Shown: positions 47,736 through 52,496 of the stretch, piece after piece | How positions within the stretch are numbered: the first letter of the stretch is position 1 | Layout: every line of letters begins with the position of its first letter | Notes under the pieces: generated by a model | Databases searched by the model: none | What the model was told of the DNA's origin: nothing | The model's input: only the letters and a program-made list of their open reading frames with translations | Made by a program: the position numbers and the translations under genes | Source: Allobosea sp. Tri-44 | Lineage (GTDB): Bacteria; Pseudomonadota; Alphaproteobacteria; Rhizobiales; Beijerinckiaceae | DNA: 64,000 nt | Assembly: GCF_004123845.1 (NCBI RefSeq) | Contig: NZ_NBDP01000015.1 | Coordinates: 62,001 to 126,000, forward strand | Direction of reading: 5' to 3'

Positions 47736-48728
47736 ATGACCTCGTTTCCTGCCATAGCAGCTCCAGCGCCGATCCGCGTCGTGATCGTGCTGTTCCCGCG
47801 CACCAAGCTGCTCGACGTCACCGGGCCACTGCAGGTTTTCAACGACGCGAAGCGCGCCGATGGCAGCGCTGTCTACGAGATCACCCTCGCCTCGGAGCAT
47901 GGCGGCCGGGTCGAGACCGATGCCGGCGTGCCGCTGCCGAGCGTCACGTTGGCCGAGGCCGCGGCGCAGCCGGTCGACACATTGCTGGTCTCGGGCGGGC
48001 GCTCGGCCCTGGAAGCGGCCGACTCGGAAGCGCTGCTCGACTTCCTGCGCGAGCAGAGCGGCAAGGTCCGCCGCCTCGGCTCGATCTGCCTCGGCGCGTT
48101 CATCCTCGCCGCCGCCGGCCTGCTCGACGGCTGCGAGGCGACGACACATTGGGAATATGCCGACCGGCTCGGCGCGGCCCATCCGGCGACCACCGTCACG
48201 CCCGACGCGATCTTCGTCAGCAATGGCAGGATCTGGACCTCGGCCGGCGTCTCGACCGGGATCGACATGGCGCTCGCCATGGTCGAGGAGGATCTCGGCC
48301 GCAAGGCGGCGCTCGATCTGGCGCGCGACCTCGTGCTCTACCTCAAGCGCCCCGGCGGCCAGTCGCAGTTCAGCGGCGAATTGCAGCGCCAGTCGCGCGA
48401 TGCCGCCGGCCGCTTCGAGCGCCTGCACGCCCATATGCGCGAGCACGCCGCCAGCGATCTCTCCGTGCCGGAGCTCGCCCACATCATGGCGATGAGCCCG
48501 CGCCATTTCGCCCGGATTTATGCACAGGAGACCGGCATGAGTCCGGCCAAGGCCGTCGAGGCGGTCCGGCTCGATCTCGTCCGCGACCTCCTGGAAGAAA
48601 GCGAGCTCGGCATCCAGCAGATCGCAGCCCGCGCCGGCTTCGGCGATGACGAGCGCCTGCGCCGCGCCTTCCTGCGCCGCTATGGCGTCGCGCCGGGCGA
48701 ATACCGGACGCGGTTCGGAAACGGATGA
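47736..48728 (+). CDS. GlxA-family AraC-type regulator
   Basis: A 330-residue regulator. An N-terminal DJ-1/PfpI domain (about residues 8-180, with the nucleophile-position cysteine in GSICLGAFILAAAGLLDG) is fused to an AraC helix-turn-helix at about 225-325 (MSPRHFARIYAQETGMSPAK, IQQIAARAGFGDDERLRRAF). GlxA-type proteins often control quaternary amine or amino acid catabolism, or the adjacent gene. It converges with the Lrp gene. Confidence 0.9.
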   Translation: MTSFPAIAAPAPIRVVIVLFPRTKLLDVTGPLQVFNDAKRADGSAVYEITLASEHGGRVETDAGVPLPSVTLAEAAAQPVDTLLVSGGRSALEAADSEALLDFLREQSGKVRRLGSICLGAFILAAAGLLDGCEATTHWEYADRLGAAHPATTVTPDAIFVSNGRIWTSAGVSTGIDMALAMVEEDLGRKAALDLARDLVLYLKRPGGQSQFSGELQRQSRDAAGRFERLHAHMREHAASDLSVPELAHIMAMSPRHFARIYAQETGMSPAKAVEAVRLDLVRDLLEESELGIQQIAARAGFGDDERLRRAFLRRYGVAPGEYRTRFGNG

Positions 48729-48733
48729 GCCGG

Positions 48734-49216
48734 CTAGCCCCGGCCCAGCTCGACCGGCACCGAATAGGAGCGCTTCACCCGTCCGAGCGCGAAGCTCGAT
48801 TCGATCGAGGCGACGTTGTCGAGCCTCGTCAGCTTGTCCTTGAGGAAGCGCTCATAGGCGGCAAGATCGCTGACGATGATGCGCAGCAGGTAATCGCGCT
48901 GGCCGGTCATCAGATAGCAGTCGGCGACTTCGGGCCAGCGCGAGACCGCCGCCGCAAAGCGGTCGAGTTCCTCCTCGCGCTGCCGCTCCAGCTTGATCGA
49001 GGCGAAGACCGAGACCGGCAGGCCGAGTTTCTCCTGGTTCACGATGGCGACATAGCCTTCGATGATCCCGGCCTCTTCCAGCAGGCGCACCCGCCTGGCG
49101 CAGGGGCTCGGCGACAGCCCGACCTTGCCGGCAAGCTCCTGCACGCTGATCCGCCCATCCGCCTGCAAGGCCTGGACGATGCGGCGATCAATATCGTCGA
49201 GCTTGAACTCTGGCAT
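48734..49216 (-). CDS. Lrp/AsnC-family regulator
   Basis: A 160-residue Lrp-type regulator: DIDRRIVQALQADGRISVQE, VGLSPSPCARRVRLLEEAGI, then a RAM domain. A 16-bp motif at 49244-49259 just upstream of its start reappears, in the same orientation to the gene, upstream of the transketolase gene at 50007. It therefore probably regulates both itself and that gene. Confidence 0.9.
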   Translation of the reverse strand: MPEFKLDDIDRRIVQALQADGRISVQELAGKVGLSPSPCARRVRLLEEAGIIEGYVAIVNQEKLGLPVSVFASIKLERQREEELDRFAAAVSRWPEVADCYLMTGQRDYLLRIIVSDLAAYERFLKDKLTRLDNVASIESSFALGRVKRSYSVPVELGRG

Positions 49217-49243
49217 TTTCCCTCGCAGGCCACCGCGAACTTA

Positions 49244-49259
49244 GCGGAAACCACCAAGA
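49244..49259 (-). promoter_or_regulatory. Shared 16-bp motif upstream of the Lrp gene
   Basis: On the minus strand the bases TCTTGGTGGTTTCCGC lie 27 bases upstream of the Lrp start. An exact copy is at 50007-50022 on the + strand upstream of the transketolase gene. Likely an Lrp operator. Confidence 0.6.
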
Positions 49260-49390
49260 GCGGAAGTAGCCGGGCAATAATTGTGACATTCCCGTCACGG
49301 TTGTAATTTTGCTGCGTTTTCAGCGTTGGCGAGCGCTGGCTTGGGAGGCCGACTCAGGTCTAGTCGGGCTCCCTCCTCTCGGATCCCGAC

Positions 49391-49993
49391 ATGCTCAACC
49401 GCCTGTTTTCGCTCTGCCTTCTCGCGGCAGCTCTCGCCGGCTGCGCCACCGTCCCGAACCCGCTCACACCGCAACAGGTCGAGACACTCCGCCTGACGAC
49501 GGTGACGGTCGAGATCGCCCCGGCGACGACCCTGTGGTGGGGCGATGGCGACCGCGCCTATGCCCGCAGCAAGGGCCTGCCGGAACAGGACGCGGAGGAG
49601 CTGTCGAAGACGCCGGAAGCGCGCACTTTCATCGCCAAAGCCGCGTCGGACAAGATTTCCTCCGCTCTCGAACACGAACTCAGGCCAGTGCTCGCCGGCC
49701 AGCGACCGGTCAAGGTCGTCGTGGCGCTGCGCGAGCTCCGCCTAACCTCGATCATCCAGCGCATCCTCGTCGGGGGCCCGCATGAGATGACTGCGGGTGT
49801 GATGATCATCGACGCCAAGACCGGCACGCCGATCCTGTCTCACCCTGGGCAGCGGTCGATCGCGCGCGCCGGCGAAGGCATAGGCGGCACGCTCGTCGAT
49901 GCAGCCTTCCTTGCGCCCCCGATCGATCGGTTGACGGGCAATTTTGCCGAGGACTTCAGGAATTGGCTCCTGCCGCAGCAGCCGCCTCAATAG
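49391..49993 (+). CDS. Predicted lipoprotein, unknown
   Basis: A 200-residue protein with a lipobox (LCLLAAALAGCATV, lipidated cysteine at residue 18). The mature part is alpha/beta (LTTVTVEIAPATTLWWGDGD, VKVVVALRELRLTSIIQRIL, MIIDAKTGTPI). It is not a recognised family, though the layout resembles periplasmic DUF4410-type lipoproteins. The gap before its ATG carries the shared motif on the far side. Confidence 0.65.
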   Translation: MLNRLFSLCLLAAALAGCATVPNPLTPQQVETLRLTTVTVEIAPATTLWWGDGDRAYARSKGLPEQDAEELSKTPEARTFIAKAASDKISSALEHELRPVLAGQRPVKVVVALRELRLTSIIQRILVGGPHEMTAGVMIIDAKTGTPILSHPGQRSIARAGEGIGGTLVDAAFLAPPIDRLTGNFAEDFRNWLLPQQPPQ

Positions 49994-50006
49994 GAATTGC
50001 CGGCGA

Positions 50007-50022
50007 TCTTGGTGGTTTCCGC
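50007..50022 (+). promoter_or_regulatory. Shared 16-bp motif upstream of the transketolase gene
   Basis: TCTTGGTGGTTTCCGC, 80 bases upstream of the ATG at 50103. It is identical to the motif upstream of the Lrp gene and forms an imperfect palindrome when extended, TGGTGG-TTT-CCGCCA. Confidence 0.6.
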
Positions 50023-50102
50023 CAAATCCGGCGGCGCGGGAGCTGATCTTTAGCTGCCTTCACCACGCGAACCATGCATGATGGCCTGCGCTGGAGGCCA
50101 TC

Positions 50103-52496
50103 ATGTCCGATCCCCGTCTGCCCATCCTTGCTGAGCTCGAGAAGAAGATTCTCTGGCTCGCGTCGTGGACGATCCACAACGCCAACCATCTGCGCGACAA
50201 TGGCGATGGCATGAAAGTCGGCGGCCACCAGGCCTCCTCGGCCTCGCTGGCGACGATCATGACGGCGCTCTACATGGCCGCGCTGAAGCCGCAGGACCGG
50301 GTGGCGGTGAAGCCGCACGCCTCGCCGATCTTCCACGCCATCAACTATCTGATGGGTCTGCAGACGCAGGAGAAGCTCGAGAACTTCCGCGGCTACAAGG
50401 GCGCGCAGAGCTATCCCTCGCGCACCAAGGACATAGACGACGTCGATTTCTCGACCGGCTCCGTCGGTCTCGGCGTGGCGCAGACGCTCTTCTCCTCGCT
50501 GGTCCAGGACTATGTGAAGGCGCATGGCTGGGCCAAGGACGCGCCCGAAGGTCGCATGGTCGCGCTGATCGGCGATGCCGAGCTCGACGAGGGCAACATC
50601 TTCGAAGCCCTGATGGAGGGCTGGAAGCATGGCCTGCGCAACACCTGGTGGGTGATCGACTATAATCGCCAGTCGCTCGACGCGGTCATCCGCGAGGGCC
50701 TCTACGACCGTTTCGAGCAGATGTTCAAGAACTTCGGCTGGGATGTCGTCACGCTGAAATACGGCTCGCTGCAGCAGGCCGCCTTCAAGGAAAAGGGCGG
50801 CGAGCGGCTGAAAGCGTGGATCGATTCCTGCCCGAACCAGCTCTACTCGGCCCTGACCTTCCAGGGCGGCGCGGCCTGGCGCAAGCGCCTGATGGACGAT
50901 CTCGGCGATCAGGGCCCGGTCACCAAGCTGATCGAGAAGCGTTCCGACGCCGACCTGTCGAAGCTGATGTGCAATCTCGGCGGCCACGATCTGCCCTCGC
51001 TGCTCGAAGCCTTCGAGGCTGTCGACCACGACCGGCCGGTCTGTTTCCTGGCCTATACGGTCAAGGGCTTCGGTCTGCCGTTGGCCGGGCACAAGGACAA
51101 CCATTCCGGGCTGATGACCAAGGAGCAGATGGAAGGCTTCAAGGCCGCCAACAGGGTCCGGCCCGGCCATGAATGGGACCTGTTCGAGGGGCTGACGCTA
51201 CCGGAGAAGGACGTCCGCGCCTTCCTCGACAAGGTGCCGTTCTTCGCGAGGGGACGCCGGCGCCATTCGGCCCCGACTCTGCCGGTTCCGGCCAAGCTCG
51301 AAGCCGGCGTCCAGGCGACGATGTCGACGCAGATGGGCTTCGGCAAGGTGCTCGACGAACTCGCCAAGCTCGGCGGCCCGCTCGCCGACCGCATCGTCAC
51401 CACCGCGCCGGACGTTACCGTCTCGACCAATCTCGGCCCCTGGGTCAACCGGCGCGGCCTGTTCGCGCGGGCCTCGATGGCGGACACCTTCAAGGACGAG
51501 CGCATCCCCTCGATGCAGAAATGGGAGTTCTCGCCGAAGGGCCAGCATATCGAGCTGGGGATCGCCGAGATGAACCTGTTCATCAATCTCTCGGCACTCG
51601 GCCTGTCGCATTCGATCTTCGGCGAGCGGTTGATCCCGATCGGCACGCTCTACGATCCCTTCATCTCGCGCGGCCTCGATGCGCTGAACTATGCCTGTTA
51701 CCAGGACGCCCGCTTCATGGTCGTCGCGACGCCGGCCGGTGTCACGCTGGCGCCCGAGGGCGGCGCGCACCAGTCGATCGCGACGCCGCTGATCGGCATG
51801 AGCCAGGACGGGCTCTGCGCCTTCGAGCCGGCCTTCGTCGACGAGCTCGCCGTGATGATGCGCTGGTCGTTCGAGTACCTGCAGAAGGATGGCGAAGGCG
51901 ATCCGGACGAGCGCACCTGGCTGCGCGACGAGACCGGCGGCTCGGTCTATCTGCGCCTCTCCACCCGCCAGGTCGAGCAGCCCAAACGGGCGATGACGCC
52001 GGAGCTGGAGCGCGACATCATAGATGGCGCCTACTGGCTGCGTAAGCCCGGCCCGAACGCCTCCGTCGTGATCGCCTATACCGGCGCCGTCGCGCCCGAG
52101 GCGATCGAGGCCGTCGGCCTGCTCGGCGAGGACCGCCGCGATGTCGGACTGCTCGCCATCACCTCGGCCGACCGGCTCAACGCCGGCTGGCAGGCAGCGG
52201 AGCGGGCGCGCCAGCGCGGCAACCATGCCGCCACCAGCCATGTCGAGCGCCTGCTCGGCGAGCTCTCGCGCGATTGCGGCATCGTCTCGGTGCTGGACGG
52301 CCATCCGGCGACGCTGGCCTGGCTCGGCAGCGTCCACGGCCACAGGCAGAAGGCGCTCGGCGTCGAGCATTTCGGCCAGACCGGCACGGTCGCCGACCTC
52401 TACCGCCATTTCGGCATCGACGCGAACGCGATCGTGCACGCGGCGAACGCAGCCGCGCCGGGCCGGCCGGTCAGGTATCTGAAGGCGCTGCCTTGA
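50103..52496 (+). CDS. Transketolase-family enzyme, AceE/MdeB-like 2-oxoacid dehydrogenase E1
   Basis: A 797-residue thiamine-diphosphate enzyme. The ThDP motif is GDAELDEGNIFEALMEGW at about 157-174, with N188 in WWVIDYNRQS. The N-terminus (ASSASLATIMTALY, FRGYKGAQSYPSRTKD) resembles the homodimeric pyruvate dehydrogenase E1 family (AceE), though it is shorter than AceE (about 890). Pseudomonas MdeB, a 2-oxobutyrate dehydrogenase E1, is a known relative controlled by an Lrp-type protein. Here an Lrp gene lies 890 bases upstream and shares a promoter motif with it. No E2 or E3 gene is near. A plain transketolase cannot be excluded. Confidence 0.75.
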   Translation: MSDPRLPILAELEKKILWLASWTIHNANHLRDNGDGMKVGGHQASSASLATIMTALYMAALKPQDRVAVKPHASPIFHAINYLMGLQTQEKLENFRGYKGAQSYPSRTKDIDDVDFSTGSVGLGVAQTLFSSLVQDYVKAHGWAKDAPEGRMVALIGDAELDEGNIFEALMEGWKHGLRNTWWVIDYNRQSLDAVIREGLYDRFEQMFKNFGWDVVTLKYGSLQQAAFKEKGGERLKAWIDSCPNQLYSALTFQGGAAWRKRLMDDLGDQGPVTKLIEKRSDADLSKLMCNLGGHDLPSLLEAFEAVDHDRPVCFLAYTVKGFGLPLAGHKDNHSGLMTKEQMEGFKAANRVRPGHEWDLFEGLTLPEKDVRAFLDKVPFFARGRRRHSAPTLPVPAKLEAGVQATMSTQMGFGKVLDELAKLGGPLADRIVTTAPDVTVSTNLGPWVNRRGLFARASMADTFKDERIPSMQKWEFSPKGQHIELGIAEMNLFINLSALGLSHSIFGERLIPIGTLYDPFISRGLDALNYACYQDARFMVVATPAGVTLAPEGGAHQSIATPLIGMSQDGLCAFEPAFVDELAVMMRWSFEYLQKDGEGDPDERTWLRDETGGSVYLRLSTRQVEQPKRAMTPELERDIIDGAYWLRKPGPNASVVIAYTGAVAPEAIEAVGLLGEDRRDVGLLAITSADRLNAGWQAAERARQRGNHAATSHVERLLGELSRDCGIVSVLDGHPATLAWLGSVHGHRQKALGVEHFGQTGTVADLYRHFGIDANAIVHAANAAAPGRPVRYLKALP

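Follow-up and report, generated by a model that had tools for sequence, protein, structure and literature searches.

In a 64-kb stretch of Bosea DNA (genome G000), called the window here, the gene of an Lrp/AsnC-family regulator (lrp) and that of a thiamine-diphosphate (ThDP) enzyme carry the same 16-bp motif in their upstream regions. An earlier note on this DNA took the match as a sign that the Lrp protein regulates itself and the enzyme. This raises the question of whether the motif is an operator of the adjacent regulator, and of what kind of enzyme it would control.

The motif copies and the gene between them

The motif, TCTTGGTGGTTTCCGC, was found as exact copies at 49244-49259 on the minus strand and at 50007-50022 on the plus strand, which confirms both sites at 27 and 80 nt from the starts of lrp and the enzyme gene. 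A scan of the whole 64-kb window detected no further match at up to three mismatches, a laxity at which 0.45 matches are expected in shuffled sequence. From base composition, the chance expectation is about 2e-5 per window for the exact 16-mer and about 5e-5 for any 16-mer common to both promoters, so the match is indeed unlikely to have arisen by chance. The 16-mer makes up most of a 17-bp imperfect palindrome and is the core of TTGGTGGTTTCCGCCAA and TTAGCGGAAACCACCAA. That both copies have the same orientation towards their genes is true, but it says little for a dimer site, since the site is a pseudo-palindrome. The earlier note missed a gene lying between the copies, which codes for a predicted lipoprotein (Table 1). 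The copies are thus inverted repeats flanking this gene, with 27-nt arms that are 85% complementary.

Table 1. Features of the lrp/enzyme locus, in window coordinates.
Feature	Position	Strand	Basis or remark
Lrp/AsnC-family regulator gene, lrp (160 aa)	48734..49216	-	Pfam and NCBIfam; orthologues in relatives
Left arm of the 27-nt inverted repeat flanking the insert	49236..49262	+	
Box A, lrp side: TTAGCGGAAACCACCAA on the plus strand (reverse complement TTGGTGGTTTCCGCTAA)	49241..49257	-	24 nt from lrp start, as in relatives
Inserted gene, predicted to code for a lipoprotein (200 aa, start resembling an LAGC lipobox)	49391..49993	+	No Pfam or NCBIfam family match
Right arm of the 27-nt inverted repeat	50004..50030	+	
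Box A', enzyme side: TTGGTGGTTTCCGCCAA	50009..50025	+	77 nt before ATG
Box B: TTAGCTGCCTTCACCAC	50050..50066	+	41 bp from A', 36 nt before ATG
AceE-like ThDP enzyme gene (797 aa)	50103..52496	+	Pfam, NCBIfam, structure-sequence scores, tree

Box B is a weak match in the window (8 of 12 positions) at a conserved position. A sigma-70 scan matched no promoter. At 49277-49304, in the inserted DNA that separates lrp from the lipoprotein gene, an imperfect inverted repeat was noted, ATAATTGTGACATTCCCGTCACGGTTGT, whose short tail is rich in T; it may serve as a regulator site (TGTGAC-N6-GTCACG) or form a weak hairpin. Convergent with lrp, and directly following its 3' end, is a gene for a DJ-1/PfpI-AraC regulator (FtrA-like; 47736-48728).

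Conservation of the box, its probable regulator and the insertion

The nearest relatives have lrp and the enzyme gene side by side in divergent orientation, separated by 121-124 bp and with no lipoprotein gene between them. In this shared intergenic region, a single box A lies at 24 nt from the start of lrp, and box B follows after another 41 bp. The 17-bp box has the consensus TTGGCnGnnnCnGCCAA and occurs at the same offsets in other alphaproteobacteria. Across 44 lrp/enzyme intergenic regions, the mean match score by offset peaked at 24 and 65 nt from the lrp start; in the 27 non-Bosea regions, which are not independent as Azospirillum makes up a large share, it peaked at 23-24 and 64 nt. 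The centres of A and B were 41 bp apart in 31 of the 44 regions, the distance also seen between A' and B in the window. Some Bosea genomes were counted in both collections searched; the L032 and L107 regions, for example, are identical. Searching orthologous promoters, the check proposed with the original claim, thus returned the box at fixed offsets (23-24 and 64-65 nt) and with 41-bp spacing.

When unseeded palindromic expectation-maximisation (EM) was applied to the intergenic regions, nothing but degenerate AT motifs came out, and a fixed consensus was therefore used, scored against shuffles and against a comparison group lacking lrp. With three versions of the consensus, non-Bosea regions with an adjacent lrp reached z-scores of 6.6 to 10.7, compared to 0.8 to 3.5 for non-Bosea enzyme promoters without one (n=38); these values lean upwards because the consensus was picked by eye after the sites had been read. 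On these scores the box goes with an adjacent lrp outside Bosea, and the fixed offsets are sturdier evidence than the z-scores. In four Bosea genomes (G000, G003, G007 and G013), the strict pattern TTRGYGGWWWCCRCYAA at up to one mismatch was found at the lrp/enzyme locus only, which suggests that the regulator acts locally and not globally. The genome scan of G012 gave no strict-pattern match, its box A being the off-pattern TTAGCGAAAATCGCCAA. Outside this locus, the best G000 site under laxer matching falls within an acyl-CoA-dehydrogenase-like frame; the two-mismatch site on C12 was dropped because it is part of a coding frame.

The regulator itself has the domains of a local Lrp protein, an AsnC-type HTH and an AsnC ligand-binding domain (Pfam HTH_AsnC-type and AsnC_trans_reg, the latter at 1.1e-22), and scores 134 bits against the NCBIfam Lrp model, whose cut-off is 233. 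In many relatives, its orthologue and the enzyme gene stand in divergent orientation. There, both genes directly share one control region with conserved palindromic sites, the strict form of which is limited to the locus in the four Bosea genomes above; in the window, the inserted gene now stands between them. Autoregulation together with regulation of the enzyme gene is thus well supported by the footprinting offsets, the association with an adjacent lrp and the locus-unique strict box, although the argument from exact identity is weakened by the history of the insertion.

Among 25 Bosea genomes, only the window strain has the lipoprotein gene at the lrp/enzyme position; homologues with 31-67% identity are found elsewhere in 4 of the 24 others. 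When the region is aligned with L020 and L101, the match stops at box A on either side. On the enzyme side, A' lies exactly 41 bp from B, and on the lrp side, A is kept at offset 24 with no recognisable B. A substitution in A (CCGCCAA to CCACCAA) is present, inverted, in A'; it is absent from the nearest relatives and recurs in the more distant L117. A' therefore looks like an inverted copy of A, and template switching at the palindrome is one possible mechanism. Since box A stands inverted at both ends of the insert, much of the exact identity reflects this duplication. Relatives have one box A, and the identity of the two copies is accordingly weaker evidence of co-regulation than first argued; the conservation of the box in relatives remains in its favour.

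The identity could then be a mere by-product of the insertion, in which the second of two inverted copies has no regulatory meaning. This would account for the single box A of the relatives, for the longer 27-nt inverted repeat of which the copies are part, and for the substitution in A', which fits the copying of a derived sequence. However, box A itself appears to be a conserved operator in many genera, and A' sits at exactly the ancestral distance from B, so that the enzyme side keeps a complete operator. We regard this explanation as quite unlikely.

Very unlikely, in our judgement, is that the box belongs to another regulator, such as a different Lrp/AsnC paralogue, rather than to the adjacent Lrp. 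In its favour, at 24 Bosea loci without an adjacent lrp, the enzyme promoter still carries the boxes, so another regulator can presumably use them. One candidate is an Lrp paralogue 71-73% identical to the window protein, encoded elsewhere in seven Bosea genomes that lack lrp beside the enzyme gene; at the two loci read, it stands beside aldo/keto-reductase-, aldehyde-dehydrogenase- or SDR-like frames. Its recognition-helix stretch is nearly identical (LSASPCARR against LSPSPCARR), and it may act in trans on these boxes. Against this idea, the box outside Bosea accompanies an adjacent lrp at a fixed distance from its start. Moreover, a second Lrp gene, 53% identical, is divergent from a methionine-gamma-lyase-like PLP enzyme in L184 (G000:C1:339036-340901) and in the majority of the Bosea genomes listed, and the region between this pair lacks the box: a box common to this pair was rejected, at best 7 of 12 positions matching. 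In L106, L109, L111, L030 and similar Bosea loci without an adjacent lrp, a facing pair such as TTGGTGATTTCCG...CGGAAATCACCAA was seen upstream of the enzyme gene; its arms seem to co-vary between species, and either a paired operator or a hairpin is conceivable.

From the sites observed, with their conserved sequence, their spacing and their restriction to the locus, and from the insertion, we consider it highly likely that the motif copies are operator sites through which a local Lrp-type regulator controls its own gene as well as the ThDP-enzyme gene divergent from it, and that an ancestral operator was split by an insertion with inverted duplication of box A. The ancestral operator would have been one divergent intergenic region of ~120 bp, in which box A lay beside lrp and box B 41 bp from A, a spacing of about four helical turns that would suit cooperative binding by an Lrp oligomer. 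The lipoprotein gene would have entered at box A, which was duplicated in inverted form, leaving the lrp promoter with A and the enzyme promoter with A'-B at the original spacing. We infer both the binding of the local Lrp to the boxes and the sign of regulation; the ligand is perhaps methionine or a 2-oxo acid, and the enzyme would act on a 2-oxo acid such as 2-oxobutyrate. The window locus is a clear case of a shared operator divided by an insertion, with a box retained by each of the two genes.

Identity of the ThDP enzyme

The enzyme family was found in 76 of 149 sampled genomes of the order, and its records are usually named 'transketolase' or 'DXPS N-terminal domain-containing protein'. 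These names, and a Pfam Transketolase_N match at 8e-10, are what speaks for a plain transketolase, an identity that is extremely improbable: the enzyme scores 130 bits against a solved AceE (1l8a) and 56 or less against transketolases, falls far below the transketolase model cut-offs (104.7 bits against 488; 52 against 682), and belongs to a family in which the AceE residues H106, H142, Y177, E571, Y599, E636 and H640 are invariant. Sequence alone separates it from transketolase, the identity named beforehand as one that would overturn the proposal.

The description of the enzyme as AceE/MdeB-like is correct at the level of the superfamily. AceE and TIGR03186 are its best named families in NCBIfam, and most of the AceE active-site residues are retained, D230, N260 and Q262 in addition to the invariant ones. 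Both observations would fit a true MdeB, which is the E1 component of a 2-oxo acid dehydrogenase complex. However, the scores are far under the cut-offs, 195 bits against 860 for AceE (TIGR00759) and 173 against 1408 for MdeB (TIGR03186), and the enzyme is only ~25% identical to either (26% to genes that NCBI names mdeB). The alignment starts at AceE residue 69, the N-terminal region being missing, and throughout the family sample H407 is replaced by N and E522 by V. In E. coli AceE, the N-terminal segment binds E2, and H407 serves acyl transfer to E2. No E2 or E3 genes were seen beside the annotated enzyme orthologues, whereas at the loci read for mdeB, this gene is accompanied by E2 and E3 genes and by a separate Lrp. 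In a quick tree, the alphaproteobacterial relatives of the enzyme and one mycobacterial relative, a long branch, fall on one side and mdeB and AceE on the other (SH-aLRT 100), so that the mdeB-named genes lie across a supported branch. A true MdeB is therefore unlikely, and the comparisons indicate that the enzyme belongs to a separate AceE-like ThDP clade without the AceE N-terminal region and loop histidine. In the Bosea relative G023 (L186), an additional true AceE-type E1 (899-codon frame) was seen beside a lipoyl E2-like frame.

Roseobacter loci and known Lrp systems

Leisingera, Sulfitobacter, Roseovarius and two Ruegeria, R. pomeroyi DSS-3 among them, have methionine gamma-lyase in divergent orientation to an Lrp gene, and an orthologue of the enzyme follows the lyase gene directly or after two genes. 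The roseobacter orthologues compared are 66-68% identical. The box was found in three of these five regions (Leisingera and both Ruegeria; 11 to 12 of 12 positions), and was absent from the Sulfitobacter, Roseovarius and Tabrizicola regions searched. In R. pomeroyi, a perfect box, TTGGCAGAATCTGCCAA, stands between Lrp and the methionine gamma-lyase - enzyme genes. Gene SPOA0318 of this species is named megL and is listed at 28.9, with DMSP genes, in a table of the transcriptional response to Micromonas exometabolites (PMC9870897); the entry says nothing directly on the enzyme. The Lrp tree is poorly resolved, and the roseobacter Lrp may consequently not be an orthologue of the window Lrp. The gene order, with the box in three of five regions, makes an MdeR-like role in methionine catabolism plausible.

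Collectively, the motif copies were described correctly, the regulatory reading is probable from the comparisons above, and the proposed parallel, 'as MdeR does with MdeB', is a plausible analogy to MdeR/MdeA by way of the roseobacter gene order, but not one that extends to the enzyme, whose identity as MdeB is not supported. The result provides an operator and a regulator, both open to test, for an alphaproteobacterial enzyme that is widespread and that databases call transketolase, and plausibly links its family to methionine catabolism. We tentatively suggest, as a possibility somewhat short of an even chance, that the enzyme represents an unrecognised ThDP family that resembles AceE but has neither the N-terminal arm nor the loop histidine. 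This family would process the 2-oxobutyrate that methionine gamma-lyase sets free, or a related 2-oxo acid, and would be controlled through an Lrp box whose conservation reaches from Azospirillum to the roseobacters, with the marine model Ruegeria pomeroyi among them.

Local Lrp regulators encoded divergently from their targets have been described before, among them PutR, BkdR, KynR, PA2577 and MdeR (PMC8707732). The window locus resembles them in its Lrp-type protein, its divergent gene of amino-acid or 2-oxo acid metabolism and its palindromic site in a common region, and differs in that the operator is split by an inserted gene with box A duplicated. A literature search for MdeR and mdeB, in which subscription papers were thinly covered, returned nothing. 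In the MdeR-MdeA-MdeB organisation of Pseudomonas putida, an Lrp regulator lies beside an E1-like ThDP enzyme, as in the window, and the roseobacters have methionine gamma-lyase as well; the Bosea locus lacks methionine gamma-lyase, and its enzyme is in a different clade from the mdeB-named genes. With AceE, the homodimeric pyruvate dehydrogenase E1 (1l8a), the enzyme shares the overall domain order and most active-site residues, but it is about 24% identical, lacks the N-terminal ~65 residues, and has N at H407 in a shortened loop and V at E522. SPO_RS21435 of R. pomeroyi, the orthologue behind methionine gamma-lyase, belongs to the same enzyme family and has the same box between Lrp and its operon, which, unlike the window locus, includes methionine gamma-lyase.
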